Source: Sphingomicrobium arenosum
GTDB lineage: Bacteria; Pseudomonadota; Alphaproteobacteria; Sphingomonadales; Sphingomonadaceae
Length of the DNA stretch: 64,000 nt
Direction of reading: 5' to 3'
Assembly: GCF_026157085.1 (NCBI RefSeq)
Contig: NZ_JANPVN010000001.1
Span: 558,001 to 622,000, forward strand
In this document: piece after piece, positions 1,870 through 20,806 of the stretch
Layout of the letters: each line of letters starts with the position of its first letter
Numbering within the stretch: the first letter of the stretch is position 1
The notes under the pieces: generated by a model
The model's input: only the letters and a program-made list of their open reading frames with translations
Told to the model about the DNA's origin: nothing
Database searches by the model: none
Position numbers and translations under genes: made by a program

Positions 1870-3228
1870 CTAGGGGGCGTCGTCTTCGGTCGGGGCCGGT
1901 CGGAGAAATTCGAGCCGGAAGGTGGCACCGCGCGGCATGGGGACGAAGGTCGCATCGCCGCCGAAAGATCGCATAATCTCGCGCGTGAGGTGGAGGCCGA
2001 GCCCGCAACCGTCCCGGTCCCAGCGCTCGCGGCGAAATGGCTCGAACAGACTGTCATGAAAGTCACGGGGTACACCGGGACCCTCGTCGATGACGTCGAT
2101 CTGTCCACATCCGCTGACGACGACGCTGATCTCGCCGACATTGCCGCCGTGGGCGATGGAATTGCCGATGAGGTTGAGAAGCGCGCGTTTCAATATCAGC
2201 GGGTCGCCACAAACCGCGACATCGGCTTCAGGCGCGACGAACGCGATGTCATAACCCGAGGCACTGGCCAGCGGAGCCATTTCGGACACGGCGTCCCGCG
2301 CCAGTTGAACCAGCGAGGTCGACAGTCGCGCGCTTTGCGCTTCTTGGGAGAGGCGTTCGATGTCGAGCATCTGGGCGACGAGATTTGTCATGCGGGCCAC
2401 CCCGCGTTCGATCTCGGCCTTTTGAGAATTGTCGGGCAACGCGTCGATCTGGAGCGATAGGATGGCAAGGGGCGTGCGCAATTCGTGCGCGACGTCGGAC
2501 ATGAACCGTTTGCGGCGCATGATATCGTTGGCAAGCCGATCAAGAGCGTCATTGAAGCCGCGAACCAGCGGGAGAAGTTCGCTTGGCGTCCTTGCCTCGC
2601 CAATGCGATGTTCCGGTGTGGAAGGCCCCACACGCATCGCATCCTCCACGGCGGGACGCACCGCCGCGGTGATGACGGGAAGCGCGGCAAGCGTGGCCAG
2701 CAGCCCCAGGCCGGCCAGGATCGCGAGGCCCGCGAACAGACCTTCGCCCAGAAAGAAGTAGAGCGCATCGGGGGCGGTCACATCGTCGGGGTCGACGCCT
2801 CCCACCACGAACAAATAATCGCCGCGTCGATCCAATATGGCATCGGACAGCGGCCGTGGCTCTCCCGGGACGTGGAAACGGCCCCCGGAAAAATCGCCTG
2901 CAATTCCATTGATTACCGGACCGAGCGAGGTCGGCGGCGTGCCAAACGTGAAGGTGGTTTCTCCATCATTGGCGACGACCCAAAGTGCCGGATTACGGCT
3001 GGCGAATGCGGCAAAGTCCGATTTGCGAGGAAGACGCAGCTGACCGTCGATAAAGCGAACATCGGGCAGAAGCCGCGCGAGCGCGATCGCGGGGCCGGCA
3101 TGATGGTCCTGGCCCTCGACGGAGAGACTGGTTGTGGTCGCAATCGAGAAGCCGCCGACGATGATGACGGCGTAAATACCGACAAGGACGGCTGCCGCAC
3201 GCCGCTTTAACGAGGGATGACGGGTCAT
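1870..3228 (-). CDS. Sensor histidine kinase (HAMP/HisKA/HATPase)
   Basis: Membrane histidine kinase of 452 residues that should phosphorylate the response regulator encoded immediately upstream. Visible parts in order: a transmembrane helix near 12-32, a periplasmic sensor region of about 120 residues, a second transmembrane helix near 165-190, a HAMP-like linker, the H-box AHELRTPL with the phospho-acceptor His, an N-box (LIGNSIAHGG), a G1 box (DEGPGVP) and a G2 box (GCGLGLHL). Its ATG overlaps the regulator's TGA by four bases (ATGA), so the two are translationally coupled. The stimulus cannot be read from the sequence. The C-terminus is close to the QseC/PmrB type of kinase. Confidence 0.93.
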   Translation of the reverse strand: MTRHPSLKRRAAAVLVGIYAVIIVGGFSIATTTSLSVEGQDHHAGPAIALARLLPDVRFIDGQLRLPRKSDFAAFASRNPALWVVANDGETTFTFGTPPTSLGPVINGIAGDFSGGRFHVPGEPRPLSDAILDRRGDYLFVVGGVDPDDVTAPDALYFFLGEGLFAGLAILAGLGLLATLAALPVITAAVRPAVEDAMRVGPSTPEHRIGEARTPSELLPLVRGFNDALDRLANDIMRRKRFMSDVAHELRTPLAILSLQIDALPDNSQKAEIERGVARMTNLVAQMLDIERLSQEAQSARLSTSLVQLARDAVSEMAPLASASGYDIAFVAPEADVAVCGDPLILKRALLNLIGNSIAHGGNVGEISVVVSGCGQIDVIDEGPGVPRDFHDSLFEPFRRERWDRDGCGLGLHLTREIMRSFGGDATFVPMPRGATFRLEFLRPAPTEDDAP

Positions 3229-3911
3229 AGCGGGCGCAGCATGTAACCGACCCCGCGAACCGTGACGATGGTCGCGCCTGCTTCGAGATCCACCAATCGG
3301 CGACGCAATCTCGAGACATGGGTTTCCAGGGCGTTGGACGAGACGTTCGTTTCAAATCCGTAGATTTCGGCATCGAGACGATCACGCTGCACGACCCGGC
3401 CAGCGCGTGCCGCGAGCAATTCGAGGAGCAGCAATTCGCGCCGTGGCAATCTGATCGGCCGTCCCGCGATTTCGACTTCCCTCGTCGTTGGCACGAAGGC
3501 GAGCCGTCCCACCGTAATTCGATGATCGGCCATGCCCTGCGGTTGACGACGACACGCTGCTCGCACGCGCGCGAGCAATTCATTGAGGGCGAACGGCTTG
3601 ACCAGATAATCCTCGGCACCGGCATCCAGGCCTTCGACCCGATCTTCGATCTGGTCCCTGGCGGTGAGGAATATGATTGCTGGCGGCGAGGGCCGCGACT
3701 TTGCGACCTTCACCAGCGCCAGGCCGTCCCCATCGGGCAGTCTACGATCAAGGAGGATGAGGCGAAAGGACGCCGTCAGAAGGGCTTCGATGGCATCGGA
3801 CAGGCAGCCCACATGATCGACCACCCACGCCTCGCGGCGCAGGCCGGCTGCAATCTGCGTTGCGAGGGTAGGCTCGTCTTCTACGAGCAAGATGCGCGCG
3901 CTTTCGGTCAT
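3225..3911 (-). CDS. OmpR-family response regulator
   Basis: DNA-binding response regulator of 228 residues when started at the ATG at 3911 (MTESARILL). The frame stays open further upstream, but the extension has no homology-like content. The receiver domain shows the acidic pocket in LVEDEP, the phospho-acceptor Asp in LILLDRRLPDG and the conserved Lys in VKPF. The C-terminal winged helix runs from about 130 to 228 (RLPRRELLLLELLAAR, then ALETHVSRLRRRL and VRGVGYML), typical of OmpR/PhoB proteins. It forms a two-gene operon with the histidine kinase. No operator repeats were recognised upstream. Confidence 0.93.
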   Translation of the reverse strand: MTESARILLVEDEPTLATQIAAGLRREAWVVDHVGCLSDAIEALLTASFRLILLDRRLPDGDGLALVKVAKSRPSPPAIIFLTARDQIEDRVEGLDAGAEDYLVKPFALNELLARVRAACRRQPQGMADHRITVGRLAFVPTTREVEIAGRPIRLPRRELLLLELLAARAGRVVQRDRLDAEIYGFETNVSSNALETHVSRLRRRLVDLEAGATIVTVRGVGYMLRPL

Positions 3912-4353
3912 TGCTTCGCCATAAGGCCCCTTCCTTGCCACCGTCTGGCATTGCCGGGGAAAAGCGACAAGGTAGGAGGGCGCCTTCCACAGGGGGGCGG
4001 TCATCGGGCGTTGACGAGCAACGGGCCTCGCTCCGACCGCGCCGAGATGCACGAGATCCGCCTTGCCGTTGGCCGCCGAGATCGGCGGCTGCGGGTGAAC
4101 GGATCCGCGCATATCCGTTGGACACTCACGGAAAGATTGAGAGCATTGTAGGGGTCTTGGCGGATAAAGTCGGCGAACGTCGCCTCTTTGCTCATTTGAT
4201 CTACGACCAATGCTGCTCCGGTGCATTGGCCGAGTGGCAGCTGGTCATGGACTGGACGCGTGCATCGAAGACCGAGCTGCGCGCAAAGTGAGGAAAGTGC
4301 GACTGCGTCTGACAGCACCGCCATTTACTTCACGCACGAATCTCTCTCGGCGA

Positions 4354-4389
4354 CGCCCTAGCGGAAGTCCGCGGACTTGGGCGCTTTTT
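4354..4389 (+). terminator. Possible intrinsic terminator with a 14-bp palindrome
   Basis: A perfect palindrome, AAGTCCGCGGACTT, at 4365-4378 is nested inside an outer CGCCC/GGGCG stem and followed by five T residues at 4385-4389. The shape is that of a rho-independent terminator on the plus strand, but no intact plus-strand gene ends just before it, so it may be a relic or a protein-binding palindrome. Confidence 0.35.
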
Positions 4390-4707
4390 CGAACAGATCT
4401 GGGAGTAACCGCAGCGTCTTTGCGATACCTGTGGGGATAATGCGGCCGAATTGCGCCGGCGCGTCTCCTTCAGTGATGCATTCGGTACCGTTTCCTGCGG
4501 AACAGGGAAAAACGCGCATAAGAACAGGAAAAACAGGCCGCTCCGCCGGCGTCCGCTGGAGCGGACTGGAGATTTTTCAGAGTTTTCCGCCGATCGCCAT
4601 GTCAGGAAGCCCTCCGCCTGTTATTTGGAAGAACAGGGGTCGGATTTGGCATTATCAGGGCATTTGTTCGGCATGATCAGGTGTTTTTGGCTCAAAACAG
4701 GAAGAAG

Positions 4708-5027: not shown

Positions 5028-5111
5028 TAGGAATGATGCGGGCTCGAGCGGCTGATTTCTCGGGAACCGCCTCCAAGAACGGACAGTCGGCTATCGGCCC
5101 AAAACGCGACA

Positions 5112-8100
5112 TCAAATCCTCAAAGCGCCCTCGATCCGTCGCCTTGATGGAGCCCGCAAACGAGAAAAGCCGTATGCCTCTGCAATAGCCTTTGCGGGAT
5201 CGTCTTCATCCCCATAATAGCGCCCTGCCACTCGTAGTTCCGCGTCCGGGATTTCCTCAATCGGCCGCTTTTCATCGTCGTCGGTTGGAATGCGCCAGGT
5301 TGAGAGCTGCCCCTCATCACTTTCTCGTGCCCAAATAACCTCCGCACCACTGGCTTCTGTCGTGAGATGAGCGACTGATTTTGCGATCTTCCGGATGCGA
5401 GCCATGATTTGACCGCCCGTGCGCATAAATCCGTGCGCGCGCGCGATACGGGTCGACAGCGACGAAAGCTGAATTGGGGCCTCTACCTCAACAATGGCAG
5501 AGATCATCCCTTTCAAGACCGGTGTATAGAGAACATCATGAAAACGATCGGGCTCCAGCTGGTCGGTAAATGATACGAGGTCTGCCCGGCGATACTCCGT
5601 TCGAACGGCTTCTGAGGGGCTCGATTGAAACTCTGATTCACGGCGAGCGAATAGCGCGTCGTCGTTTAAGGTTGTTTCGACATTTTCTCCTGCGCTTTCC
5701 TCACGGCTTGCTGTCGTGACTGGCTCATCCGAACGCTCTTCGGGATCATCTGCATTCTCGGTTTCAACCAAGGCGCTATCTGTTGCATCTGAGTATTGAC
5801 GCCCATTTAGTTCACTCGCGGCGATCTCACCTTCTCGACCCAGCTCAAGAAGGTCCATGAGTCTTTCGTGAACGCGCTCTATTGCCTTGTCTGCATCAAT
5901 CCAGAAATCGGTCGACCAGATCCTCAAGATCCTCCATCCCAATCCCTCAAGTACAGCCTGTCGAACCTTGTCTCGGTCGCGGGCCGTCAACGCGCTGTGA
6001 TACATAGCCCCATCGCATTCGATTCCAGCCAAGAAGTCCCCGGGTCGATCGGGGTGCACAACCCCCAGGTCGATGCGGTAGCTCGAAACACCAATCTGAG
6101 GACGGGTGATCCAGCCGCGTTTCTCCAGCATCGCTTTCACAGCATCTTCAAACGGCGATTCTGTCGCTCCGACCGAGCCCTGATGTGCTTCAGCGAGCGC
6201 ACGCGGACCTTTATCGGCATATTCGATGAAGTGCTTCAGATCACGAATAGCGGTGGCACTTGTACGGCTCAGATCGATCATACTGGCGTCGAAGCTAGTG
6301 AAGAGGATCATTTCCTGCCGAGCTCGTGTGATTGCAACGTTCAGGCGTCGTTCGCCGCCATCACGGTTGAGCGGTCCGAAGTTCATCGACATTGACTGCG
6401 CCTCGGGCTCGATCGGACCAAAGGTCACGCCAAGAATGATAATGTCGCGCTCGTCACCTTGGACAGTCTCCAGATTTTTTACGAAAATCGGCTCTTCGAG
6501 GTCATCCGAAAAGTGGGCGTCCAACGCCGCGTTGCGAGACCGCTCGGTTTCGAGCAGATCCAGAATGAGTTCCTGCTGCTGGCTGTTAAGCGTTACGACA
6601 CCGAGTGTCTTCGCCCCCGGCTTCACGCCAGAAAGCTGAGATTTTACTTCCTCGACGATGGCCTTGGCCTCGATCGCGTTGGTCTGACCGCGGCCCTTGG
6701 CGTAAATGCCGTCAACCCGACGCCACGATACCGCACTTGCGCGAGTCTCGGGTGCGGGGAAAGTGACGAGATTATTGCCGTAGTAGCGCGAGTTACTGAA
6801 GGCTATCAGGCTGTCGTGGCGGCTCCGATAGTGCCAGTTCAAGCTCCTCGGCGGTATTCCGGCTCCTTGGCATTCTTCCAGAATACTATCGAGATCCCCG
6901 AGATCGTCATCGATCGCAACGGCTGTGCCCTTTGTGAAGAAGTTGGTAGGCGGCATTTGCTTGTCGTCACCGGCCAATACTAGTTGTCGGCCGCGCGCGA
7001 TAGAGCCGACGGCGTCCCAGGGCGTAATCTGCGAGGCTTCATCGAAAATGACGATATCGAAAAGCGCCTGATCGGCCGGTAGGTACTGCGCGATGCTCAG
7101 GGGGCTCATCAGCATGCATGGTGCCAGCTTGGTAAAATCCTCTCCCATCTCTTCCGCCAGCTGGCGTACCGCCTTATGCCTCCGTTTCTTCGCAATCTCA
7201 TGCTTGAGAATGCCGAAACCGGATTTCCGAGCGACGTCGCCTGGTTCAGGCAAATTCGAGCAAAGCCGTGCCCGAACGATCTTCGACGTCAGGTCCTGAA
7301 CGGCGTCTGTCTGCGCTCTAAATCTGTCGATGGCATCTTCATGGATCCGGGCATTGAATTGGCGTAGCAGTGGCTCACCATCGATCGCCCACGTTGCGAA
7401 CCATTTCGCGTAAGCTGTTTCGAACAGCGGCACTGCCACGCCTTCAGGCAAGCCACCTTCAATCAGCTCGACCAACTGCCCCAGACCACTGCTTTCAGCT
7501 TCGCGCTTTGCCTTATTCCAATGGCAAATGCTCTGCAGCGCCCGAGAATTCGAACCGATCGCCTCGAGAATGCTGTCAACATCCGAAAAGGACCGATCGG
7601 CTAACGACGTTCCGCCGATTTCTAGGAATCGCTGTTCCGACGCCGACCAGTTTTGGATCGCTTCGCGAAAGTCGCCAATGATATGTGAGAGATGGCTGCC
7701 CTCATGCAGCAAGTCATTGGCATCAACGATCAGTTTTCGAAGCTGCGTATTCCATCTGGAAAGGTCGTCTGCATTTGATGCGCTGCGCTGAATGGTTTTT
7801 TTGGCAATGCGCGCTAGATCCGCCATCCGGAACAGTTCGCTCGGGTCGCTATTGAGACCGACCGAAATTGAGGCCTTCGCAAGCTTTGCGCCAAATACCT
7901 CCAGCCCCGCGCGCTTCGTTCTCAGTCGTTCAAGGATCGGGAGATCTTTTCCCGGGTCCGGCCTTGCAGAGGTTTTCCCTGCGGCGCCGAGCTCGCGGAT
8001 GATTTTCCTTTTGGCCAGGTCCTCAAAAAACCAAAACCTCTCGCCAGCCTCACCCCACGATCTGGAGAAAGCCGCCGTATCGATGTCGCCTTCGGCTTCA

Positions 8101-11100
8101 AGGCCATACTCTGTGCTCAGCTCAGCTCGAAGGTCCCGATAGTCTTGCAGGCCCGTTGCATAAGCGTTGATCGCCTCGATGATCTCCCGGCTGTTGGGTT
8201 CGAACGCAAACTTCAAGTCGGCGCCCGCCATCGAACCGATATCGGAGATCACCTCCTTTGCATCGGCCGCCTCTGCGAAGCATTCAATGGCGAACGGTAG
8301 ACCACTCGCCTTGCAGAATTGGGGCACGATTTTCGATAGCTCTCTGTTGGCTTTCGTTAATTCTTTCGCGACCGCAACCAAGCTGGCTTGAGCGACATTA
8401 CTCCATTCGGTCAGCTCGACATTCTCGATCACCAACGGATCGACTGCTCTCAGGTCCTGAAAAGTAAGCTCAAGCATCCTAACGGATTGCTTGAAAGCCT
8501 CGACCTCGTGTTGAGAATGCTCTGTCGATGCTGGCCATTCCAGAGCAGGGACCAGCTCATCGTCGTCGCGGATTGAACGCCAGACCGCGTCATGCACGGT
8601 CATTCCGTTGGAATATTGCTTATGAAGGGCGCCCGCGACCACGTTAAGCTGATCGCGAAGTTGCTCAAGTCGTTGGGTTTCGTTCGACCATTCCTCAGGC
8701 GACAAAGCGCCTCGCGCGTTCCAAGCTTCGTCCAACTGGCGAATGACTTCGCTCTTCGCGCTTTTATGCGAGTGAAGTTCGAGGCAAAACTCCCCTAGTC
8801 CAATCGCCTCGAGGCGCCGATAGACAACGTCGAGCGCGGCGCGCTTTTCCGAGACGAAAAGGACTCGTTTGCCCAGCGCGAGATTATGCGCAATCATGTT
8901 CGCAATCGTCTGGGACTTGCCCGTACCCGGGGGGCCGTCGAGAACAAAGTCGTAGCCTTGCCCCGATGCGACGACGGCCGCGAGCTGCGACGAGTCTGCG
9001 GGTAGAGGCGCGAAGAGGTTTTCAGGGCGAACGGCTTTGTCCAAAACCTTGGCTTCGACCATTGGCTCGCGATCCGGACTTAGCGTGGAAGCGAAGCTTT
9101 GCGACCCACCTTCAATCAGATGCCGGACGACGCGGTTTTGTTTCAATTGCTCCGCTCGGTCTCGCAAGTCCTTCCACATAAGATATTTGGAGAAGGAGAA
9201 GATACCGAGAACGATATCGTTTCTGACTTCGAAGCCCGAAGAGTCTTTGATCTTTTGCCGAACGTGGTTCCAAACGCCATGAACATCGATCCCGCTGTCA
9301 TCGGAGGGCAGCTCTCTGTCCAGACCGGGAAGCTCTAGAGCGAAATCCTCCTTCAAAAGCTCGACCAGCGTCATGTTGAAGCGCGCGTCATCGCTATGGG
9401 CGCAAAGTTTCATATCTGCCCGTGCGCTGCGACGCTTTAGGCTGACGGGAAGAAGGATGAGGGGCGCGCGATAGGTTTTCTGCTCGCTCGGGTCTTTCTT
9501 CCATTCAAGAAAACCCATGGCGAGGTACAGCGTATTTGCCCCACCCTCTTCAAGGTCAGACTTCGCAGCGCGATAGAGTTTGATCAGAGCAGCATCGAGT
9601 TTCTTCTTGTCGAGCTCACTGTAGATTTCACCTCTTTCGAGCCCCTGTCGCGCATGCTCGATAAGAAGGTCTTCCTTACTGCGTTGACGATGTAGTTCGA
9701 CATCGCGCCCGCCGATTTCCAGATCTGGCACTGGCCGGATTTTGATGTCCTTCCCATCAGCCAACAGGTCTTCAAGGCGCCCGGGATCGGGGCAGACGAG
9801 CTCGAGTACCGAGCCTTGCTTCGGAAGATTCAGAAGGCGATTGCGAGCAGTCAGGTCGAGGAGTTTTCGCTGCCATTCTATGATTTTGTCGGTGGCTGCG
9901 TCCGCTTCCTCAGCCCCGCCGTCAGCGAGGTCAAATGATTTGGGGAGCGAGCGGGGGGCCAGATCCAGAGCATGCGACCGCTTGCTAACGCTCTCCGAAT
10001 CATCAGGCTTTTCGGAGAACACGGAAAGCGGTCGTAGCTTCTGCATACGGCCGCGATGAATATCGATAAGCGTGAAAAAGTCTGGGGACGTGATTGCCTC
10101 GATTTGGCGGCGGGCCTCGGCAACCGCGTCGCTGAAGCACGCGGGAGGATTGTCGGCGACCAAGGTCGTTTCGAAAACAATCACCTCGTCTAGCTCAATT
10201 CGGTTGCGCACGCTTCCCGCGCTATCGGTGACGAGATCGGCGAATTCAGTGGGCTGGAGCCACAGCCCTGCAAAGGCATGACCCTTCGTAAGCACGATCA
10301 GCGGATGGAGACCCGCCTGTTCTAGCGCAGACGTGAAAAGGAGCGCAGTGTCGAGACAGGTCGCGAGCCGTCCGCGCATCACCGAGCCAGGCGTGCGTAC
10401 CTTCTGGCCCTGCTCCTCGAAACTCGCGGGGGGAACCGCATAGCTCAGCTCGAGATCGCATACGGCAGTCCAGATAGCTGATGCGAGTTCGTAGATGCGC
10501 CGGCGATCACCGGACTTATACCCGTCGATCGATCCATCTTTGCCAGCTCGGCGCAGGATTTCCGAGGCGGACTTGAGAAGGCGATCAATCGACGGATCAT
10601 TCGGCATCGAGAACGCCGCCAGGAGTTCGGGCATTGCAGTTGCCCCGCCCCACTCATCATAGGCCAGAAGCTCAACCGGGAACTTCTCCTGGGCGACCTG
10701 CTCACCATCTTCATCGGTGAGTTCCAATATGAGCTGTCCTCGCTCACTTTCGCTTAGACCGCGGGTATAGGAACCGTTTATCTCGACGCGGCGATCGTTG
10801 ATGTGAAGCGTATCGTTCGGCCCGATGCGATCGATTTTCCATTCGCGCTTTTCTAGGAAGTCCGGTTCCGATCGAAGGGAAAGCCTAAGATTCTCGAGTG
10901 TGACGTCTTGATCGTTCGTCAGAGCGATGGACCTTAGGGGAGGCACAGAATTCTGGTGCGAAACAAACCCAATCTTTTCTGCCACGTCGGCGGCTATTGA
11001 AACCGAGCATTGCACGCTGTCGCTCTTGATTTCAGGAGTTGTTTGAACTTCGTCGGGCGTCGAACCAATTTTCAATGCCGCTAGACGCGCCTCGACCTCG

Positions 11101-11240
11101 CCTCTGAGAGCTCTCGCAGACTTGGAATCACGCCTCTTAAGCTCAAAGGAAATCAGGTCGAGTTCCGCAGCATTATCGGACAGCTCATTCGCCATCCGCG
11201 ATAAATCTGCATTGGACTTGTTCATAAGCGGACGCGACAT
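5112..11240 (-). CDS. DUF4011 superfamily 1 helicase with Vsr/DUF559-type nuclease (HheA-like defence protein)
   Basis: Giant protein of 2042 residues from the ATG at 11240, which has a GAGGTG ribosome-binding site; an upstream in-frame TTG at 11264 is less likely. Order of parts: an N-terminal region with a transglutaminase-like patch (Cys295 in ATCLDTALLF, His321 in KGHAFAG); DUF4011-like region at about 453-700; Walker A GPPGTGKS at 769-776; a long insert rich in charged helices; Walker B IVIFDEAS at 1396-1403; motif VI LNVAITRAR near 1633-1641; a Vsr/DUF559-like PD-(D/E)xK nuclease at about 1697-1790 (Asp1724, Glu1741, CDGAMYHS); and a DUF3320-like tail near 1905-1960. DUF4011-helicase-Vsr proteins are known as single-gene antiphage systems (Hhe). 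The defence role here is inferred from architecture and island context. Confidence 0.85.
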   Translation of the reverse strand: MSRPLMNKSNADLSRMANELSDNAAELDLISFELKRRDSKSARALRGEVEARLAALKIGSTPDEVQTTPEIKSDSVQCSVSIAADVAEKIGFVSHQNSVPPLRSIALTNDQDVTLENLRLSLRSEPDFLEKREWKIDRIGPNDTLHINDRRVEINGSYTRGLSESERGQLILELTDEDGEQVAQEKFPVELLAYDEWGGATAMPELLAAFSMPNDPSIDRLLKSASEILRRAGKDGSIDGYKSGDRRRIYELASAIWTAVCDLELSYAVPPASFEEQGQKVRTPGSVMRGRLATCLDTALLFTSALEQAGLHPLIVLTKGHAFAGLWLQPTEFADLVTDSAGSVRNRIELDEVIVFETTLVADNPPACFSDAVAEARRQIEAITSPDFFTLIDIHRGRMQKLRPLSVFSEKPDDSESVSKRSHALDLAPRSLPKSFDLADGGAEEADAATDKIIEWQRKLLDLTARNRLLNLPKQGSVLELVCPDPGRLEDLLADGKDIKIRPVPDLEIGGRDVELHRQRSKEDLLIEHARQGLERGEIYSELDKKKLDAALIKLYRAAKSDLEEGGANTLYLAMGFLEWKKDPSEQKTYRAPLILLPVSLKRRSARADMKLCAHSDDARFNMTLVELLKEDFALELPGLDRELPSDDSGIDVHGVWNHVRQKIKDSSGFEVRNDIVLGIFSFSKYLMWKDLRDRAEQLKQNRVVRHLIEGGSQSFASTLSPDREPMVEAKVLDKAVRPENLFAPLPADSSQLAAVVASGQGYDFVLDGPPGTGKSQTIANMIAHNLALGKRVLFVSEKRAALDVVYRRLEAIGLGEFCLELHSHKSAKSEVIRQLDEAWNARGALSPEEWSNETQRLEQLRDQLNVVAGALHKQYSNGMTVHDAVWRSIRDDDELVPALEWPASTEHSQHEVEAFKQSVRMLELTFQDLRAVDPLVIENVELTEWSNVAQASLVAVAKELTKANRELSKIVPQFCKASGLPFAIECFAEAADAKEVISDIGSMAGADLKFAFEPNSREIIEAINAYATGLQDYRDLRAELSTEYGLEAEGDIDTAAFSRSWGEAGERFWFFEDLAKRKIIRELGAAGKTSARPDPGKDLPILERLRTKRAGLEVFGAKLAKASISVGLNSDPSELFRMADLARIAKKTIQRSASNADDLSRWNTQLRKLIVDANDLLHEGSHLSHIIGDFREAIQNWSASEQRFLEIGGTSLADRSFSDVDSILEAIGSNSRALQSICHWNKAKREAESSGLGQLVELIEGGLPEGVAVPLFETAYAKWFATWAIDGEPLLRQFNARIHEDAIDRFRAQTDAVQDLTSKIVRARLCSNLPEPGDVARKSGFGILKHEIAKKRRHKAVRQLAEEMGEDFTKLAPCMLMSPLSIAQYLPADQALFDIVIFDEASQITPWDAVGSIARGRQLVLAGDDKQMPPTNFFTKGTAVAIDDDLGDLDSILEECQGAGIPPRSLNWHYRSRHDSLIAFSNSRYYGNNLVTFPAPETRASAVSWRRVDGIYAKGRGQTNAIEAKAIVEEVKSQLSGVKPGAKTLGVVTLNSQQQELILDLLETERSRNAALDAHFSDDLEEPIFVKNLETVQGDERDIIILGVTFGPIEPEAQSMSMNFGPLNRDGGERRLNVAITRARQEMILFTSFDASMIDLSRTSATAIRDLKHFIEYADKGPRALAEAHQGSVGATESPFEDAVKAMLEKRGWITRPQIGVSSYRIDLGVVHPDRPGDFLAGIECDGAMYHSALTARDRDKVRQAVLEGLGWRILRIWSTDFWIDADKAIERVHERLMDLLELGREGEIAASELNGRQYSDATDSALVETENADDPEERSDEPVTTASREESAGENVETTLNDDALFARRESEFQSSPSEAVRTEYRRADLVSFTDQLEPDRFHDVLYTPVLKGMISAIVEVEAPIQLSSLSTRIARAHGFMRTGGQIMARIRKIAKSVAHLTTEASGAEVIWARESDEGQLSTWRIPTDDDEKRPIEEIPDAELRVAGRYYGDEDDPAKAIAEAYGFSRLRAPSRRRIEGALRI

Positions 11241-11844
11241 TTTCACCTCGTGAGACGAATACAAGTATAACCGCGCCGCGAATCGAAAATTCGCGGTCGG
11301 TCGATCGCATGTAACTTCAGAGACTCCCCCCGATCGCCGATAACGATGCGCAAAGAGTCAGCCGTAGTAGATGTCATACTTCCCCCGGTTCGGCACCAGT
11401 ATCAAAGTCGGAATGCAAACCTACGTCAAGGCAAGCGATCGGAGAGCGACGCTCCTTCTAGAGGCCTCCCACTCCCCCGGCGAAGGTCCGTCAGCGCAGA
11501 TGCAGCACACCCGAGCGTAAGAAATATAAGTCGTCGGAGAATTGGTGAAGAAGCCGAAATGGCCTCCTTTGCCCTAAAATTTCTGCCAGGTTGAGGATTC
11601 GGTTGTTAGCCGACAGTGGCGGCCGAACGTATTCGGAGGCTAGTTTCCAATCCCCCCGCCGAAAGAGGATGATCCGCTGTCGGCGCAAAGTCGGCCGATC
11701 CATGAGATTGTCAATTCAACGGGAAGCGGTCGGCCTTGCGGCCTCAAATCGAGGGAAGGACTCACGTAGCTGAGCCAATTGAATGAAAATATGCACTCGC
11801 GGCCAATGGCTTGGCTGTCGCGAGCAAGAAGAAGGAACTTGCAA
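11241..11844. other. 600-bp intergenic region with helicase promoter and no gene seen
   Basis: Besides the promoter/operator of the helicase gene at the left edge, I see only an imperfect inverted repeat (GCCGACAG at 11609-11616 and CTGTCGGC at 11677-11684). No reading frame here has convincing codon use or a ribosome-binding site. Confidence 0.5.
11263..11296 (-). promoter_or_regulatory. Helicase-gene promoter with overlapping palindromic operator
   Basis: On the minus strand a TATACT -10 element lies at 11268-11263, about 23 bases before the ATG at 11240. Just upstream, at 11276-11296, is a perfect inverted repeat (CCGCGAAT, five-base spacer, ATTCGCGG) covering the spacer and -35 position. 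No good -35 hexamer is present. This layout suggests control by a DNA-binding regulator, though none is encoded next door. Confidence 0.45.
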
Positions 11845-12381
11845 ATGCAAGCCCAAGCCGATTTCGTCGCCCGTCTCGCCCTCGACCCGATCCCCGAACC
11901 GCGCGCCAAGGTGAAGTGGCTGATGTATGCCACGACAATGCTCGTCGACGGTCACGTCGACCTCGAACCACAGCACTGGTTTCCTTATCTCGAGAATAGC
12001 TTCTTCCTCGGAGAAGCGAACCTCGTGATCATCGGAACGGGCTGTCAGCGCCCTCTAGTGCTGCGCGAAGCGATGGCGGTCGCTGCAGCGGTCACTGGCG
12101 ACCTCCTCATCGTCAGATCACATGAAGGGCCCCGACAGGCGTCGTTTGACGTCAAGGTCATCGGAGATGATCGCCTGTTCTGCGCGTACCAGCTGTGGAT
12201 CCCGCGGCCGACCGGCACGGCGTGGCTCATCCCGACGGTCGGGGAGGGGCCCTGCATCCGTCTCGAACAGTCTGGGCTCAGGGTCGAGCAGGAACCGCCC
12301 TATCTCGACTGGGCCGATCGCTGGCGAGGGATCGAGCACGGCGCTGAGTTTCTCAGCGTGGCCGTTCAGGGGTGGTTCTAA
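11845..12381 (+). CDS. Hypothetical protein, accessory
   Basis: Protein of 178 residues when started at the ATG at 11845, which has an AAGGA ribosome-binding site eight bases upstream; an in-frame ATG at 11779 lacks one. I do not recognise a family. The sequence is soluble, rich in Trp and Pro, with no signal peptide and no membrane helix. Its stop lies two bases before the ATG of the next gene, which indicates an operon with the HxH-motif protein. The pair sits between the antiviral helicase and the unknown 460-residue gene within the mobile-element-like region. Confidence 0.6.
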   Translation: MQAQADFVARLALDPIPEPRAKVKWLMYATTMLVDGHVDLEPQHWFPYLENSFFLGEANLVIIGTGCQRPLVLREAMAVAAAVTGDLLIVRSHEGPRQASFDVKVIGDDRLFCAYQLWIPRPTGTAWLIPTVGEGPCIRLEQSGLRVEQEPPYLDWADRWRGIEHGAEFLSVAVQGWF

Positions 12382-12383
12382 GC

Positions 12384-12971
12384 ATGGGCACGAAGACCAA
12401 GCCCGCCGCTTCGTTCGACGAGCCGATCGAACTCGCAGTATTCTGGAAAGGAAAACCGGAAGACGCCTTCACCTACGCCCGCTTCTACTGGCCTCCCGGG
12501 TCAGGAGAGCGGGAGAGCCTCGCTCCACGCTTTATCGCCAAGCGCCGCCCTGGCGCGAAGGAGGGCGATGTCGACACCGCTGCGCGTGTGGAGGTGTTAC
12601 TGCCCGAGGACGCGCCGGAGGAATATCTCGACCCCGACTTCCTCGTCCGCAACTACGACGCGCAGGCGGCTGCCGATGAGGGAACGGTGCTCGTTCAGGT
12701 CACGATGCGGTTCCCCGAAGCCTTCAATCTACACGGCCCCTACGAGCGTTGTAGGCGCTGGTTGTGGAAGCACTACGTCGAGAAGCGGCGGCTTCCGATC
12801 ATGGTCGTGCTCCATGCCCCGCACCTCAAGGGAAGTTCAAACCCGCCTCATGTCCACGCGCTGGTGCTGGCGCGATCGCTTGGTCGATTTGGCTGGGGTG
12901 AGAAGGATCTGAAGCTCGGCACTGATCGCGATCGAAAGGCCTCTGTCTCATCGTGGGATAATTTTCTGTGA
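12384..12971 (+). CDS. Hypothetical protein with HxH (HUH-like) motif
   Basis: Protein of 195 residues from the ATG at 12384, starting two bases after the upstream gene's stop. No full-length family is recognised. The segment VVLHAPHLKG followed by NPPHVHALVLAR (about residues 139-160) resembles motif III of MobA/MobL-type relaxases or other HUH-fold enzymes, where two His in an HxH array bind a metal. No clear catalytic Tyr or helicase-like domain accompanies it, and the protein is shorter than known relaxases. It may be a single-domain nuclease, a degenerate relaxase or a chance resemblance. The complete MobV relaxase further downstream makes an accessory mobilization role conceivable. Confidence 0.6.
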   Translation: MGTKTKPAASFDEPIELAVFWKGKPEDAFTYARFYWPPGSGERESLAPRFIAKRRPGAKEGDVDTAARVEVLLPEDAPEEYLDPDFLVRNYDAQAAADEGTVLVQVTMRFPEAFNLHGPYERCRRWLWKHYVEKRRLPIMVVLHAPHLKGSSNPPHVHALVLARSLGRFGWGEKDLKLGTDRDRKASVSSWDNFL

Positions 12972-13002
12972 ATTGCATTGCCTGACTTAAGCCGATCGAG
13001 GG

Positions 13003-13034
13003 TTCGGCCTCCGTAATCATACGGAATTGCCGAA
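13003..13034. repeat. Nested inverted repeat upstream of the 460-residue gene
   Basis: Outer arms TTCGGC and GCCGAA enclose inner arms TCCGT and ACGGA around a six-base loop. It lies 57 bases before the ATG at 13091 and 32 bases after the preceding stop. It could be an operator for the downstream gene or a weak terminator; there is no T-tract. Confidence 0.4.
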
Positions 13035-13090
13035 TTCTCGATTGCGCATCATGAATCTCCTCAGACTTTCAGAGTATAGAGGAGTATTTA

Positions 13091-14473
13091 ATGCCAACCA
13101 AAGGAACACGTGGGCGAACGCAATGGAATTATAGGGGGTTCACTCTGTCAAAGGGCTTTCGCCCAGAAGCGGTAGAGCAGGCTTTCAGCGAAACCTTCCG
13201 AAATTATCGATATGGCTCGTCAGGAAAGAGAGCTGCTCATGAGCAACTCTTCGACGTCCGCATCGATGACTTGGCGAAGGTGCCGTTGGGTGCCTTCGAA
13301 AAACGCCCTTCTGTAGCGCCGACTTACGTGATCCCGGCTCAGGAGGAGCATCTCGGCGATTACTGCCGGCACTTGCTCGATGCCGGGGGCGATCGGGACT
13401 ATATCGAACTGCTCACGCCAAGTTTCTCGTTGTCAGAGCACGTGGAAGAACTCTGGGAGATTCGGAGCCTCAGCCTGGAAATCTATCGTGAGATCGTACG
13501 CGGCCGCTTCTGGAAGGCGGTCGAACTCTGGTTCGCGCTGCCGGATAATGCGCGACCGGGGCAGTCGCAGTTTGAGAAGGTGGTTAGCCGCCAACTCCTT
13601 CTTTTCTGCGCTTTTGAACTCCAGCTGGCTGCCTGCGCCATTCGTGCGAGTTTCGAAGCGCCCCTAGGTGAGCTATTCTCCTCCACGCAGAAGGAGGTCA
13701 AGGAAGGGACCATCCGCCGCGAAAGTTCATCAGCGGAGGACATCCTTAAAGTTGTCTCATCTGCCTTTGATCCGACTGCCGGTCATAGTGATAAGATTGA
13801 GATCAAAGGAATACCTAGGGCGCTCCGCCAGAAAGCGAAGAAAATCGCGGAATCGATGAGCGATGAAGAACTGAAATCTGCGAATTTCCAGCTCGGCAAA
13901 TACGTGCCCCGTCTTTCTGACTGCTGGAGCCACGCGCCCGGCGAGGAGTACCAATCCTCTGGTAAGCTTAACGCCCACTTTTTCGCTGGTTGGACTGGCG
14001 GCATCAACCATGTCGAAGGCTTGGCGATCACGGTAATCCGCTTTGTGCAGGCCGAGCAACACGTCGCCGATATGGTCGCTACTGCATTCGAAGCCGTTTT
14101 GAACGACGAGCCTGCAGAGCGCCTAGGGCCGCTGCCGTCCCTTGGTGCTGATGGTCTCAGTGACGAGCAGAAAAACCGCGCGTTTGAGATTCTGCATCAC
14201 GTTCGGCGCGTGCACCTCCGTGATACCCGCTGGCGCTCTCGCACCACCTCCGCTGACCTTCGTCGCTTCGGAAAGGACGCGGATTATGAGGCTCGGCATT
14301 TCGACCTTCAGGATCGCGCGGGGCTGGCTCCAATGAGAAAAGCAACAAAGCGCCTCATGGCATGGGGTCAACGTTATCGCCCCGGCTCCTCTGATTGGAA
14401 GGCCGAACATGGCGTCTATTGGACCTTAGATGTGCTTCCCGAAGAACGATTGTCCCGGCCAACCCGCACATAG
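13091..14473 (+). CDS. Hypothetical protein, 460 residues, accessory
   Basis: Start ATG at 13091 has a strong AGAGGAG ribosome-binding site nine bases upstream. The product is soluble, with no signal peptide or membrane helices, a mixed charged composition and many long predicted helices. I recognise no catalytic motif or named domain. The opening segment (TQWNYRGFTLSKGFRPEAV) and the Trp/Arg-rich end (RYRPGSSDWK) are distinctive. It stands alone between the HxH-motif pair and the relaxase locus. Its stop codon forms the first bases of a 20-bp repeat that recurs after the relaxase gene. Defence, regulation or element maintenance are all possible; function unknown. Confidence 0.7.
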   Translation: MPTKGTRGRTQWNYRGFTLSKGFRPEAVEQAFSETFRNYRYGSSGKRAAHEQLFDVRIDDLAKVPLGAFEKRPSVAPTYVIPAQEEHLGDYCRHLLDAGGDRDYIELLTPSFSLSEHVEELWEIRSLSLEIYREIVRGRFWKAVELWFALPDNARPGQSQFEKVVSRQLLLFCAFELQLAACAIRASFEAPLGELFSSTQKEVKEGTIRRESSSAEDILKVVSSAFDPTAGHSDKIEIKGIPRALRQKAKKIAESMSDEELKSANFQLGKYVPRLSDCWSHAPGEEYQSSGKLNAHFFAGWTGGINHVEGLAITVIRFVQAEQHVADMVATAFEAVLNDEPAERLGPLPSLGADGLSDEQKNRAFEILHHVRRVHLRDTRWRSRTTSADLRRFGKDADYEARHFDLQDRAGLAPMRKATKRLMAWGQRYRPGSSDWKAEHGVYWTLDVLPEERLSRPTRT

Positions 14474-14490
14474 TTGCGGGGTAAGTGGCG
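14471..14490 (+). repeat. Direct repeat copy 1 flanking the relaxase cassette
   Basis: TAGTTGCGGGGTAAGTGGCG here matches TAGTAGCGGGGTAAGTGGCG at 16593-16612 at 19 of 20 positions. The two copies bracket the hairpin region plus the relaxase gene, and each sits just upstream of the next gene set. Confidence 0.7.
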
Positions 14491-14506
14491 GGCTTCCTGC
14501 CCACCT

Positions 14507-14832
14507 TTGATCCAACCCGAAAGCGATCGCGATCAGACGCCCGATGACGGGCCGTCCTCGCGATCGCTTTCGGAGGTTGATCATGAAACACCCTGTCAAT
14601 TCGCATCGGCTAGAGCCTCATCCACAAGCTCGTTTTCAGGCGCCTCATCGAGGCGCCCGCCGGCCCGCAGGAGCGGGCCGGGAGTGCCCCCGCATGGGGG
14701 CAATTGGCTGCGCCAATAAAACTGTAGTGACCGACTACAGGATCATTGGTCCCGGCGTTGCCACCCATGATCCCGTCGGTTGGGGCGATCCCCAAGCCCC
14801 CTTGTCCGAACAGGGCCGCTCGTCATGAGCGG
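14507..14832 (+). promoter_or_regulatory. Serial stem-loop region upstream of the relaxase gene (candidate oriT/structured leader)
   Basis: Perfect or near-perfect inverted repeats follow one another. They include 14517-14573 (16-bp perfect arms), 14639-14657 (8 bp, 3-base loop), 14660-14681 (9 bp), 14685-14702 (7 bp), 14703-14717 (6 bp), 14722-14740 (7 bp), 14741-14772 (10 bp, one mismatch), 14780-14795 (6 bp) and 14816-14832 (6 bp, with the relaxase ATG in the loop). The first contains two GCGATCGC palindromes. MobV relaxases nick at inverted repeats upstream of their own gene, so oriT is expected here. The series could also be a structured mRNA leader that limits relaxase translation. Confidence 0.6.
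14583..14828 (+). CDS. Small hypothetical protein coupled to the relaxase gene
   Basis: Possible protein of 81 residues starting at the ATG at 14583, with a GGAGG ribosome-binding site about six bases upstream. Its TGA overlaps the relaxase ATG (ATGA at 14825-14828), the usual sign of translational coupling. The product is Arg/Pro/Gly-rich and resembles no family I know. The composition is partly forced by the serial stem-loops in the same DNA. It may be a leader peptide whose translation opens the hairpins ahead of the relaxase gene, or simply an open frame through a structured region. Confidence 0.45.
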   Translation: MKHPVNSHRLEPHPQARFQAPHRGARRPAGAGRECPRMGAIGCANKTVVTDYRIIGPGVATHDPVGWGDPQAPLSEQGRSS

Positions 14833-16579
14833 ACCACAGTTCGTGCACATGGAAACCTACGCAATGTCGGTTTCCAGCCTTCGCCAAAAGCGCGAGATCG
14901 CGATGGCTAAGGAAGGCAAAGTCAAATTCGATCGCAGGCTCAATGTGGAGGAAATCTGCCACGAGGCCGCCCGTACGCCGGGCTCTCATCCGCATGTCGA
15001 TGAACCCTTGGAACCGCGCCTGTTATTCGGGGTCGATCCGGTCGAGGTCCCTGATATCATCCAGTCCCGTCTCGACGAGCATAAGGTGCGTCAGCGCGAA
15101 CGTCGACGCGCGCTGCCAAGAGGCCAACGGCGAGGGGTCGCATCAGCGCTCCGAAAGGATGCGCAGGTGCTCGTGGCCATGGTCGCATCATACCCTGTGC
15201 CTTGGGTAGAGGAAAAGAACGGAGAACTCGTCGCGAACTTCCAGTCCGAGGAAGAAAAGGCGCTCCTCCAAAAATGGAACGAGCTGACTATCGCGTGGGG
15301 CCATCAGCAGTGCCGTGAGCTCGGTTTAGAGCTCGTTAGCGTGGTCGAGCATTTCGACGAGGGGCATCCGCATCTCCATCTTCTTGCCGTCGCTGCCGGC
15401 GAAAACCCTGATGTGAGGTCGTGTCATCCGGGACGGCTCGCCAAGGACGCCGTCGAGCGAAACGAGGGCGAAACAGACAGGGAGCATCGGGCGCGAGGAG
15501 ATCGCGCATACAAGGATGCGATGCAGGCTTTCCAGCAGCGCTATTACGATGATGTGTCGCAAGAAGTCGGTCTTCTTCGACATGGCCCGAAGCGCTTTCG
15601 GTTGGGACATAACGAGTACAAGGAATATAGGCAGGCACAGAAGGCCGCCGCGGCTGCGAAACTGAAAAGAGACCAGGCAGAGGCTGGGCTGGCTCAGGCG
15701 CAGGTGGAGCGGAAGAGGCTCGAGAGGCGATTGGCGGACGTGAAGATCGACTTGGAGATTGTCTCTGAGGGGCTAGCTGCAAAAAGAGAAGAGAAGGGTC
15801 AGCAGGAAAGACTCAGGCAGCAACTGCTTTCATCGGTGAGCCGGCTTCAGGGAATTCTTGAGGAAGACGGGCGAATGCGGGATCGGATGATCCAAGAACT
15901 CGATGAGCTTAAGGAAGCGCGAGAAATCGAGGAACGCTCCCGGGACGAGGCAGAGGCTGAGAAGGAGCGGGCGCTTGCGGAAATCCAGAGTGAGCGGGCT
16001 CGGCTCCACTGTGAGCGGGAAAGCGTGGAACTCGAAAAGAAGAAACTCGATCGAGAGAAGCGTAGAGTCGCCAGCATCTTCGAAGGATTGAGGGCCTATG
16101 CGGCCAAAACTCTCAAATATGTCGAGAAGGAGGGCGGGGAAGCGGCCCTCGTTTACGAGGGTAAGGACGCGGGTGCTCAGAAGCGGCTTGATGCGGTGGC
16201 GTCTGATCTGCGTCCGATCATTGGTGAAATCCACAATGGGCTGATGGCGCAAGTCACGAAAGCCATTCGCCGCGTAAGAAGGGCCATGGGGGTCGCACTT
16301 AAAGCATGGGGCCAGGGCATGCTTTCCGTCGATAAAAGCCAAGCCGATGGGCCGAGACTGGTTGTCGGGAATAGTGCCGAGGCCAAGGCACTAACCGATC
16401 AGATCAAGCCCTATACTACCGAGGCTGCCACCGTGGTCGCAGCACTCCCCGATCCCGGGAAGCTTGTCGAAATATATGACCGAATGGCGGCTGTGAAGAA
16501 CATCCTGACAGAAGCGGAATACCGTCAATACGTGCAACTCAACGATGCCATTCAACAGAGTAGTCACAAAGGTCGGTAG
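14825..16579 (+). CDS. mobV: MobV-family (Mob/Pre) relaxase
   Basis: Relaxase of 584 residues from the ATG at 14825, expected to nick oriT and pilot single-stranded transfer of the element through a conjugation apparatus supplied in trans. The metal-binding motif HFDEGHPHLHLL at about 176-187 matches the HxDExxPHxH signature of Mob_Pre proteins. Residues about 285-440 form a long charged coiled coil rich in Glu, Arg and Lys, as in other MobV proteins. The start codon lies in the loop of a CCGCTC/GAGCGG hairpin. An upstream in-frame alternative at 14780 is not needed. No type IV secretion genes are in the window, so the element would be mobilizable rather than self-transmissible. Confidence 0.85.
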   Translation: MSGPQFVHMETYAMSVSSLRQKREIAMAKEGKVKFDRRLNVEEICHEAARTPGSHPHVDEPLEPRLLFGVDPVEVPDIIQSRLDEHKVRQRERRRALPRGQRRGVASALRKDAQVLVAMVASYPVPWVEEKNGELVANFQSEEEKALLQKWNELTIAWGHQQCRELGLELVSVVEHFDEGHPHLHLLAVAAGENPDVRSCHPGRLAKDAVERNEGETDREHRARGDRAYKDAMQAFQQRYYDDVSQEVGLLRHGPKRFRLGHNEYKEYRQAQKAAAAAKLKRDQAEAGLAQAQVERKRLERRLADVKIDLEIVSEGLAAKREEKGQQERLRQQLLSSVSRLQGILEEDGRMRDRMIQELDELKEAREIEERSRDEAEAEKERALAEIQSERARLHCERESVELEKKKLDREKRRVASIFEGLRAYAAKTLKYVEKEGGEAALVYEGKDAGAQKRLDAVASDLRPIIGEIHNGLMAQVTKAIRRVRRAMGVALKAWGQGMLSVDKSQADGPRLVVGNSAEAKALTDQIKPYTTEAATVVAALPDPGKLVEIYDRMAAVKNILTEAEYRQYVQLNDAIQQSSHKGR

Positions 16580-16646: not shown

Positions 16647-17042
16647 ATGACGCAACTGCCGCTCTTCGATGTCCAACCCGAACTCACCGCCCGAGGCGCA
16701 TGCCCGGGCGGTGGGCAAGGGGAGGGGATGAAGTCCGAGGACGATGTACAATCGTCTGAGGAAAAAGAGATGAGCGAAGGGCTCAGCGCCACCATCACGA
16801 CGGCGCATGACGTTCCGCACTATGTCACTGCGTGGCCCATGGGGCTCACCTACGACCAGGCGCTCGCTTACACATCCGCATCGCCATCGCAGATGCGGCG
16901 CTGGCAGCAAGATGGTCGGGTGGTCTTTCACCGTGTCGGTCGTAACGGCCGACGGGTCGCCTATCGACCTCATCTCGATGCGCTTTTGGAAGAACGCTTC
17001 AAAGGCGCCACCAGGATCGAAGAGGATTTCGATTTTGGCTAA
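16647..17042 (+). CDS. Excisionase-like helix-turn-helix protein
   Basis: Protein of up to 131 residues whose C-terminal half (GLTYDQALAYTSASPSQMRR, a WQQDGRVVFHRVGR stretch, then RRVAYRPHLDALL) has the winged-helix pattern of HTH_17/excisionase proteins. These bind attachment-site DNA and steer the integrase towards excision. The ATG at 16647 has AGGAGG only two bases away. In-frame ATGs at 16729 and 16770 also have purine-rich leaders, so the N-terminal 27-41 residues, which are low-complexity, may not be translated. The gene overlaps the integrase start by eight bases, supporting a paired xis-int function. Confidence 0.75.
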   Translation: MTQLPLFDVQPELTARGACPGGGQGEGMKSEDDVQSSEEKEMSEGLSATITTAHDVPHYVTAWPMGLTYDQALAYTSASPSQMRRWQQDGRVVFHRVGRNGRRVAYRPHLDALLEERFKGATRIEEDFDFG

Positions 17043-18285
17043 GCTGAACGCGCCTCGCTATTTCCGCGTCAAGCAGACCAAGAATGGGCCTGCCTATTAT
17101 TGGGAGCCGCCTTACTGGGCTCGTAAGGGTGCCGTGCGGCATGGTGTCGCATGCCCAGTCGTCGCCACCGCGCTGGGTCGCGACCTAGCGGCTGCATTCG
17201 AGAAGGCCGAGCGGCTGAACCAAGCGCTCGACGAATGGCGAAACGGTGAGGCCAAGACCGACCTCTTTCCTGGCACCGTAGCATGGCTATTCCGATGGTA
17301 TCAGCAATCCGAATGGTTTCTCAAACTCGCCCCTAAGACGAAGTCTGATTACCGAAAGCTGATGAAGGCCATCGCCGACACGCCCATGAAGCGCGGCGTG
17401 TTCGGGGAGCGCAACGCCGGCAGCGTCACGGCAACGGCTGCGGACAACCTCTATAAGATCTTCAAGGAGAGGGGGCGGCGGCAGGCTACCTACGCCATGA
17501 CGGTATGCCGTGCGATCTGGAACCGGGCGAACCGCTACCCCGAGACCACTGGCATTGCTGATGGTTCAAACCCCTTCAAGGGCATGGCGCTCGATCATCG
17601 AGTCAAAAAGGGCAACCTCGCGGCGACGCGAGAGCAATACGATCGATATCGAGCTGCGGCGAAGGAGCTCGGCTTCCAGTCGATGGCCGCCGCCGCTGCG
17701 CTTGCCTTCGAGCTCGTGCAGCGCGCCTCCGACTGCTTCGGTTTCGAGGATCCAGAAGACCCAGATGGAAATGAAGTTGAGCCTGAAGAGCGCGGGATCC
17801 GCTGGGTGGATTACCAGGCCGAGGAATGGATCCTGGTTCGTCAACACAAAACGGGCAAGCTGATCGACATTCCGCTCACAGACTTCAGCGGCTCGGATCG
17901 AATGCGCCTATATCCGGAGCTTGAGAGCGAACTGAAGATCGTTGCCGACGCTGCTCCAACCAAAGACGGCCTGATCATTCTCGAGGAGCGAAACGGGCAG
18001 CCGTACAAGCCCCGGAGGATGAGCACCGTTCACCGTCGCATCTGTGAGCATGCCGGCCTTCCCAAGAGCCTGACATTCACGAGCTTCCGGCACGGTGGCG
18101 CTACCGAGCTAGGGAACGCCGGCGAGGTCGATATCCGGTCGATCAGTGGCCACAGCCAGGTCAGCACGACGCTTCTCTACAACAAAACGAACCCGGAGAA
18201 AGCGCGGCGACTGGCTCGCAGCCGGCGCGCTCACATCGAGCGCATTGCCGGCGCGAGCGAATCCTCGGGAGGCAGCGATGGGTGA
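17035..18285 (+). CDS. int: Tyrosine-type site-specific recombinase (integrase)
   Basis: Phage-type integrase of 416 residues. I place the start at the TTG at 17035, overlapping the excisionase stop, because the frame upstream runs inside the excisionase gene and an AAGAGGA-like site precedes it. Catalytic residues visible: first Arg in ELVQRASD, the HxxR-type box as TSFRHGGATEL, the later His in ISGHSQVST and the nucleophilic Tyr in LLYNKT. The N-terminal part (RYFRVKQTKNGPAYYWEPP) resembles the arm-binding domain of alphaproteobacterial integrases. It should integrate or excise the surrounding element; the tRNA-Lys gene about 2.4 kb downstream is the obvious candidate target. Confidence 0.9.
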   Translation: MAKLNAPRYFRVKQTKNGPAYYWEPPYWARKGAVRHGVACPVVATALGRDLAAAFEKAERLNQALDEWRNGEAKTDLFPGTVAWLFRWYQQSEWFLKLAPKTKSDYRKLMKAIADTPMKRGVFGERNAGSVTATAADNLYKIFKERGRRQATYAMTVCRAIWNRANRYPETTGIADGSNPFKGMALDHRVKKGNLAATREQYDRYRAAAKELGFQSMAAAAALAFELVQRASDCFGFEDPEDPDGNEVEPEERGIRWVDYQAEEWILVRQHKTGKLIDIPLTDFSGSDRMRLYPELESELKIVADAAPTKDGLIILEERNGQPYKPRRMSTVHRRICEHAGLPKSLTFTSFRHGGATELGNAGEVDIRSISGHSQVSTTLLYNKTNPEKARRLARSRRAHIERIAGASESSGGSDG

Positions 18286-20648: not shown

Positions 20649-20730
20649 ACTATGAGGGATTTTGTCGGAATGACCGCGGCTGAAATGTCGGAACGGAGCT
20701 TCCGCGTCGGCGCTAAGTCATTGAGAAAAA

Positions 20731-20806
<76 letters not shown>

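Follow-up and report, generated by a model that had tools for sequence, protein, structure and literature searches.

Described MobV origins and the locus studied

The closest described relatives of the locus reported here, a chain of hairpins leading into a relaxase gene of Sphingomicrobium arenosum, are the origins of transfer (oriT) used by MobV-type relaxases. For pMV158, the system of the MOBV1 relaxase MobM, the relevant sections of PMC5863519 and PMC5090054 place an inverted repeat 8 nt before the G^T of the cut TAGTGTG^TTA, and those of PMC5863519 describe mutually exclusive hairpins, which MobM shifts from one to another; in one of them the arm ending at the cut carries a 3-nt bulge. 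IMESag-rpsI, as presented in sections of PMC5863519 and PMC5090054, resembles our locus in being chromosomal and in combining a tyrosine recombinase with a MobV relaxase whose origin lies in front of it, and differs in its size (~9 kb), its host (Streptococcus agalactiae) and its cut TAGTGCG^TTA, read as GTGCG^T on the coding strand.

In the present study we analysed a stretch of 64,000 nucleotides of S. arenosum (contig NZ_JANPVN010000001.1, positions 558,001 to 622,000; hereafter the window), and the region in front of its relaxase gene is very probably a MobV-relaxase-type transfer origin, belonging to a tRNA-Lys island in the chromosome that is itself probably mobilizable. A multi-hairpin oriT had been one suggestion of the first-pass annotation, and a MobV-type origin now appears well supported by a conserved nic-type core, a repeat 8-9 nt from the putative nick and covariation of the core stem. 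The locus shares with pMV158 two mutually exclusive core pairings and differs from it in the core (AGTCGG^T against GTGTG^T), in a cut that would lie on the strand opposite the gene, in an extra hairpin array and in a relaxase divergent in its motifs and family matches. The features on which this reading depends are the following.

14722..14740, minus strand: nic hairpin CTGTAGTCGG^TCACTACAG (minus-strand reading), with the core TAGTGACCGACTA at 14725-14737 on the plus strand
14740..14773, minus strand: inverted repeat of the oriT; its arms 14740-14750 and 14763-14773 pair at 10 of 11 positions, and its end lies 9 nt 5' of the putative nick
14730..14779, minus strand: alternative longer hairpin with a small bulge, formed by the core's GTCGG and a CCGAC immediately beyond the far repeat arm, and excluding the nic hairpin
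14825..16579, plus strand: relaxase of 584 amino acids (aa), ATG at 14825, MobM-like domain 3-252, H-DE--PH-H motif

The nic core, its repeat and an alternative pairing

By analogy with pMV158 (PMC5863519, PMC5090054), the nick would fall on the minus strand between G14731 and T14730, giving AGTCGG^T as the candidate cut sequence, because of the pMV158 repeat spacing (8 nt before G^T) and the two known cuts. The core was first noticed in the window and in another genome of the same family (G386), which carries a relaxase remnant akin to the clade of the window relaxase (a 150-aa open reading frame, ORF), and was thereafter sought in other loci. The two share the 13-mer TAGTGACCGACTA, and in both the putative cut lies 93 nt before the ATG; the stem sequence of G386 differs. 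The reverse complement of the 13-mer precedes MobV-like relaxases on two roseobacter plasmids, and core variants precede relaxases of Aeromonas, Pseudomonas and Citrobacter plasmids. Altogether 25 relaxase loci were compared (the window, L035, L023-L026, L041-L047 and L050-L061), the plasmids being a sample of 19 fetched from 62 and 68 records found, and near relatives among the loci (L054-L056; L047 and L058; L057 and L061; L041 and L044; L023-L025) do not count as independent. In 21 of them the core AGTC[G/T/A]GT stands no more than 270 nt upstream of the relaxase, 16 of these coming from one comparison and five (L023-L026 and L056) from another; L051 is uninformative in this respect, as its stretch begins at the ATG. 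TAGTC[G/T/A]GTNNCTA had no match in 355,822 bases of other loci.

The inverted repeat keeps its distance from the core as well. In 13 of 16 loci the best repeat, with ends sought at most 8 nt from the core, stops 2 or 3 nt before AGTCGG, i.e., 8 or 9 nt before the G-T step, the exceptions being L044, L052 and L053. In the window, where a longer imperfect repeat (14737-14750/14763-14776) is present as well, the score of the repeat 14740-14750/14763-14773 was matched by 11 of 2000 shuffles and by 28 of 3000 random positions. The arrangement of MobV-type origins, in which an inverted repeat precedes a G^T step by about 8 nt just upstream of the relaxase gene, recurs here with a spacing of 9 nt to the presumed cut. 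Covariation analysis, proposed as a check by the first-pass annotation, revealed compensatory changes in the core stem: of the 128 cells in 16 distinct core hairpins (alignment A2, omitting L044, whose 35-nt piece does not differ from that of L041), 93% pair, with a single G-U, and both sides change in six of the eight pairs. The covariation score was 0.474, as against 0.029-0.111 with the partner slid.

The minimum-energy DNA fold of 14720-14812 on the minus strand (z -2.4) contains the GTCGG-CCGAC pairing instead of the nic hairpin. CCGAC directly precedes the far arm in nine of the 21 loci (the window, L035, L042, L050, L053, L057, L059, L060 and L061), the other 12 being without this layout, and it occurs in 8% of random 76-nt stretches from the same loci. 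Mutually exclusive hairpins that could hide or expose the cut, another trait of MobV-type origins, are thus found at the level of sequence, through the window fold and these nine loci.

The relaxase

The predicted fold of the window protein is that of a MobM-like HUH relaxase, and motif III (HxDExxPHxH) is present, with H176, D178, E179, P182, H183 and H185 invariant in all 16 sequences of alignment A1. Mob_Pre (PF01076) did not match the window protein and matched five of the 16 A1 members weakly (best E 0.0026). Searching the relaxase profile against PDB sequences gave nothing better than E 0.079, the matches being mostly coiled coils by name and range, and these candidates were set aside. 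A search for closer orthologues returned four distant loci from genome contigs and none from viral contigs, and in searches of 298, 385, 396 and 71 genomes every match other than the window and the G386 remnant was weaker (E 6e-8 to 9e-4). The 40 plasmid relaxases listed share 26-35% identity with that of the window over 39-46% of its length. The proteobacterial MobV-type plasmids compared (Pseudosulfitobacter, Sulfitobacter, Aeromonas, Pseudomonas, Citrobacter and others) mostly have the same core and repeat spacing, and several have hairpin rows on the gene-distal side of the core; they differ in that their upstream cores are read on the coding strand.

Polarity of the probable origin

Indeed, of the 21 upstream-core loci 19 have the core in the same orientation as the relaxase gene, on its coding strand, and the window and G386 have it on the opposite strand. 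Since the core is nearly palindromic, the call of polarity rests on the AGTC.GT columns, which are among the invariant ones, and on where the repeat and CCGAC stand relative to the core, all of which agree; in the window the loop reads CGGTC on the minus strand only. Inverted polarity relative to the relaxase gene is therefore supported by the sequence. One may object that the core should be read on the plus strand, at ordinary polarity, the inverted look being due to the near-palindrome, and hairpin 14703-14717 does also lie 5' of the core on that strand; given the invariant columns, the minus-strand loop, and the fixed-distance repeat and CCGAC partner on the minus strand in both the window and L035, we hold this to be very unlikely. 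Literature searches on MobV origins, the core letters, hairpins, leading-region promoters and origins of mobilizable elements returned no title or abstract opening describing the core with inverted polarity, subscription journals being mostly uncovered, and the core letters as a query returned no oriT paper, figures lying outside the search.

If the polarity is inverted, transfer would lead leftwards through 14717-14517, and the array of hairpins would stand 3' of the cut. In the scenario we propose, the relaxase would bind the repeat 14740-14773, the fold would then switch and expose the core, and the minus strand would be cut at the G14731-T14730 step; transfer would lead off through the array and the genes to its left, the relaxase gene entering last, while a helper element would supply the export channel.

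The hairpin array

The array in front of the relaxase gene, together with the hairpins nearer to its start, comprises the following features.

14517..14573, no strand assigned: 16-bp perfect inverted repeat (arms 14517-14532 and 14558-14573) with GCGATCGC and a nested hairpin 14536-14556
14639..14657, no strand assigned: array hairpin, perfect 8-bp stem
14660..14681, no strand assigned: array hairpin, perfect 9-bp stem, GC-rich
14685..14702, no strand assigned: array hairpin, perfect 7-bp stem, GC-rich
14703..14717, minus strand: perfect 6-bp hairpin, with a C-GCA-G triloop when read on this strand
14780..14795, no strand assigned: hairpin with a 6-bp stem, lying after the oriT repeat and before the relaxase start
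14813..14835, plus strand: imperfect start-codon hairpin (8 of 9 pairs), relaxase ATG in the loop, role doubtful

The first-pass annotation had described nine consecutive inverted repeats, beginning with a perfect 16-bp arm pair and ending with a hairpin around the relaxase ATG. Both ends are indeed there, and the total is about nine, varying with the treatment of the weak ones (14575-14631). Six hairpins within 14474-14824 are perfect (arms of at least 6, loops of 3-8), namely the four between 14639 and 14717, the nic hairpin at 14722-14740 and the one at 14780-14795; none of 1000 dinucleotide shuffles reached this number (mean 0.68). When the whole 64 kb was scanned in 351-nt windows (step 25), the 13 densest, with 5-7 hairpins, started at 14376-14676, and the next best held 4. 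RNA folding, likewise proposed beforehand, gave z -8.3 for 14474-14860, and folding as single-stranded DNA z -9.1. The start-codon hairpin is weak evidence alone, as a comparable one occurs at 17 of the 1075 plus-strand ATGs of the window.

The series had also been called unusual, which holds in part. Hairpin rows upstream of these relaxases are common: gene-distal rows reach p<=0.05 in nine of the 21 loci, the window included, with a sum of 65 hairpins against ~27 in single-base shuffles, and the window stems are among the strongest. These counts, which include the oriT repeat in loci of ordinary polarity and exclude it in the window, range from 0 to 7; a Comamonas plasmid (L050) has the 7, and the window, L054 and L056 have 5 apiece. 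Among loci without the core, and again by single-base shuffles, L039 has eight hairpins over 360 nt when arms of 5 or more are counted (0 of 300 shuffles), L038 has five (13 of 300), and L036, L037 and L040 have 1, 1 and 0 before the relaxase, with 145 nt available in L040. A second relaxase in the genome that contains the window (L049) is preceded by seven hairpins in 358 nt (0 of 500 single-base shuffles; fold z -7.1 over 5090-5480). That relaxase (L049 5090-6975; G000:C1:1817089-1818974) is of MobV type, with Mob_Pre over the cut-off, and its row has another sequence.

The array itself has no second copy in its own genome, and across 396 genomes of the order, its own included, it found besides itself only matches of 22-33 nt; on these grounds a repeat family was rejected. 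No homologous copy of the hairpins 14517-14717 was found. Several other candidates were tried and rejected. The stop of a 94-aa ORF at 14544-14828 overlaps the relaxase ATG, but this ORF is without homologues and its G+C content by codon position is non-coding-like. As intrinsic terminators the hairpins offer a single T-run site, on the minus strand only and at chance level. Nor does the array accompany the two-gene module at 11779-12971: 20 loci of its second gene reach at most five hairpins in their densest 300-nt window, compared with seven here, some of the five-hairpin windows lying at or near the module (L096, L098 and L110).

Single-stranded DNA or RNA

Several observations bear on the form in which the hairpins would work. 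Over 14474-14824 the minus strand outfolds the plus strand in both RNA and DNA terms (RNA, -194.1 against -179.7 kcal/mol). For the sequence 3' of the core, the fold z is -6.9 in the window and between -2.7 and +1.7 in the other 19 loci; at ordinary polarity that side is largely relaxase gene. Within 300 nt of the 21 cores there are 35 triloop hairpins, of which, on the AGTCGG strand, 13 are GNA and 2 TNC; elsewhere in the same loci the 224 triloop hairpins include 12 GNA and 21 TNC. One-sided Fisher tests gave p ~1e-6 for GNA near the core versus elsewhere and 0.004 for 13 versus 2, values that ignore plasmid kinship and include among the 13 some oriT repeats. Loops of the d(C-GNA-G) type are unusually stable in DNA. 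Together these observations speak for single-stranded DNA as the form in which the hairpins work, in keeping with the polarity. The concentration of GNA loops near MobV-type cores was seen in L041-L061, on the presumed transferred strand, and the window has two triloop hairpins near its core, one GNA (14703-14717, minus strand) and one neither GNA nor TNC.

Weighing the explanations

A number of points weigh against a MobV-type origin as read here. The cut site and the transfer are deduced from sequence. At E 0.001 the window relaxase matches nothing in Pfam or NCBIfam, and Foldseek alone likewise yielded nothing below that value. Of the motifs listed in the section of PMC5090054 that defines MOBV1, HxxR (motif I) and NYD/EL (motif II) are not among the A1 invariants. 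The core lies ~700 nt upstream of the relaxase in L055, and in L042 and L043, where it is likewise on the opposite strand, 2.7-3.9 kb downstream of the relaxase start; it was not found at six loci with more distant relaxases outside the 25 (L036-L040 and L049). The L052 repeat is at chance level (p 0.15), G386 shows no array (0 gene-distal hairpins, fold z 0.4), and the comparison leaves out the DNA of the 15 closest relaxase orthologues. Finally, pZM3H1, a MOBV2 origin, has a different core according to the relevant part of PMC3606827, so the core AGTC[G/T/A]GT does not mark every MobV origin.

As for the array, our favoured guess among weak ones is that the hairpins 14517-14717 act as single-stranded DNA structures near the nick. 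They may form a leading-region element, the first ~200 nt to enter folding and then priming the second strand or acting as a promoter, as do Frpo/ssi of F-type plasmids, which in the relevant sections of PMC11541004 and PMC10085688 likewise carry hairpins on the first-entering strand. The array stands just 3' of the putative nick on the minus strand (z -6.9 to -9.3), where the other 19 origins have no strong fold, the minus strand is the better folder, and the plus-strand genes 11779-14473 use the minus strand as template, like the leading genes in those sections. The array is, however, downstream, not upstream, of the leading genes; a scan of 14300-15000, not tuned to the host or to folded DNA, found no sigma-70-like promoter. 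Moreover, related rows are gene-distal, so that the 3' position may be a by-product of the inverted core, the 3'-side comparison is uneven for the reason given, and no array was found in G386. On balance we consider this element somewhat unlikely, and a new MobV-type arrangement, in which the nic core is inverted, the array enters the recipient first as a single-strand entry signal for priming or early expression and the GNA-triloop hairpins are among the working parts, more doubtful still.

Alternatively, the array could have no role in transfer, consisting of insulators or terminators, or of remnants of repeated inverted duplications near the nicking site, which is possible but on the unlikely side. 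Rows near cores are common yet vary in sequence and number, and this one is single-copy with short matches only; the six perfect stems, however, argue for selection or recent origin, and decay or termination leaves the GNA strand bias unexplained, though only one window hairpin is GNA. The RNA leader controlling relaxase output that the first-pass annotation had put forward, by start-codon sequestration or attenuation, would fit the place of the array, which has a plus-strand gene on one side and the relaxase on the other, the ATG in a hairpin loop, the RNA fold and the many related loci whose gene-distal rows lie upstream of the relaxase. The idea fares poorly, and we judge it improbable: Rfam gave no family over threshold for the hairpin region, the minus strand folds better, the plus strand has no T-run terminator, the core stem holds one G-U in its 128 cells, and hairpins like that at the ATG recur by the frequency given above.

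The island and neighbouring genes

We now return to the preferred reading, an origin belonging to a tRNA-Lys island, whose right part bears two further features, preceded by the gene next to the array.

13091..14473, plus strand: 460-aa gene ending 43 nt before the first array arm; the protein search returned itself only
16807..18285, plus strand: tyrosine recombinase
20723..20777, no strand assigned: right copy of a 55-bp perfect direct repeat, the 3' part of a tRNA-Lys gene; the left copy, G000:C1:534690-534744, lies outside the window

The 55-bp repeats bound 44,088 bp. Tyrosine recombinases are encoded beside the left repeat, at a site deeper inside the stretch and behind the relaxase gene. 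The recombinase gene beside the left repeat (L118 16758-17624) starts 14 bp inside it, so two islands may have been joined to make up the 44 kb. No type IV secretion or mating-channel domain was found in 18 scanned proteins, part of the genes of the stretch, and the island looks mobilizable, not self-transmissible. No empty site was found with a query (2900-4400) that lay inside the repeat-bounded stretch and so left the left flank unprobed; the DNA to the left of tRNA-Lys in G399 showed no match to the 16.7 kb that precede the left repeat.

Additionally, the 460-aa protein has a 23%-identical relative in its own genome (L109 12010-13305). The module at 11779-12971 encodes a 200-aa protein and then a 199-aa protein with weak MobQ/MobA_MobL likeness; the second gene was matched in 41 of 249 same-family genomes, 20 of the matches in frames of similar size (197-284 aa) and most others in much longer ones, and the first gene adjoins it in 12 of 21 other loci. 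On the minus strand at 5112-11264 lies a 2050-aa DUF4011/helicase/nuclease protein, which PADLOC matched to the candidate defence family PDC-S37 (1186 bits). In Paracoccus ferrooxidans pFER4 (L043 4974-8878), next after a related relaxase gene comes one annotated as reverse transcriptase, with the nic-type core beyond it.

Significance

The window relaxase represents a clade that current family models miss. The core AGTCGG^T, a repeat at 8-9 nt and a CCGAC partner together offer a simple rule for finding proteobacterial MobV-like origins and their direction, and the direction of an origin in turn indicates which genes enter the recipient first; to these the window adds an inverted origin. If it is on single strands that the array works, it would offer an entry signal that is compact, testable and located outside the F-type plasmids.
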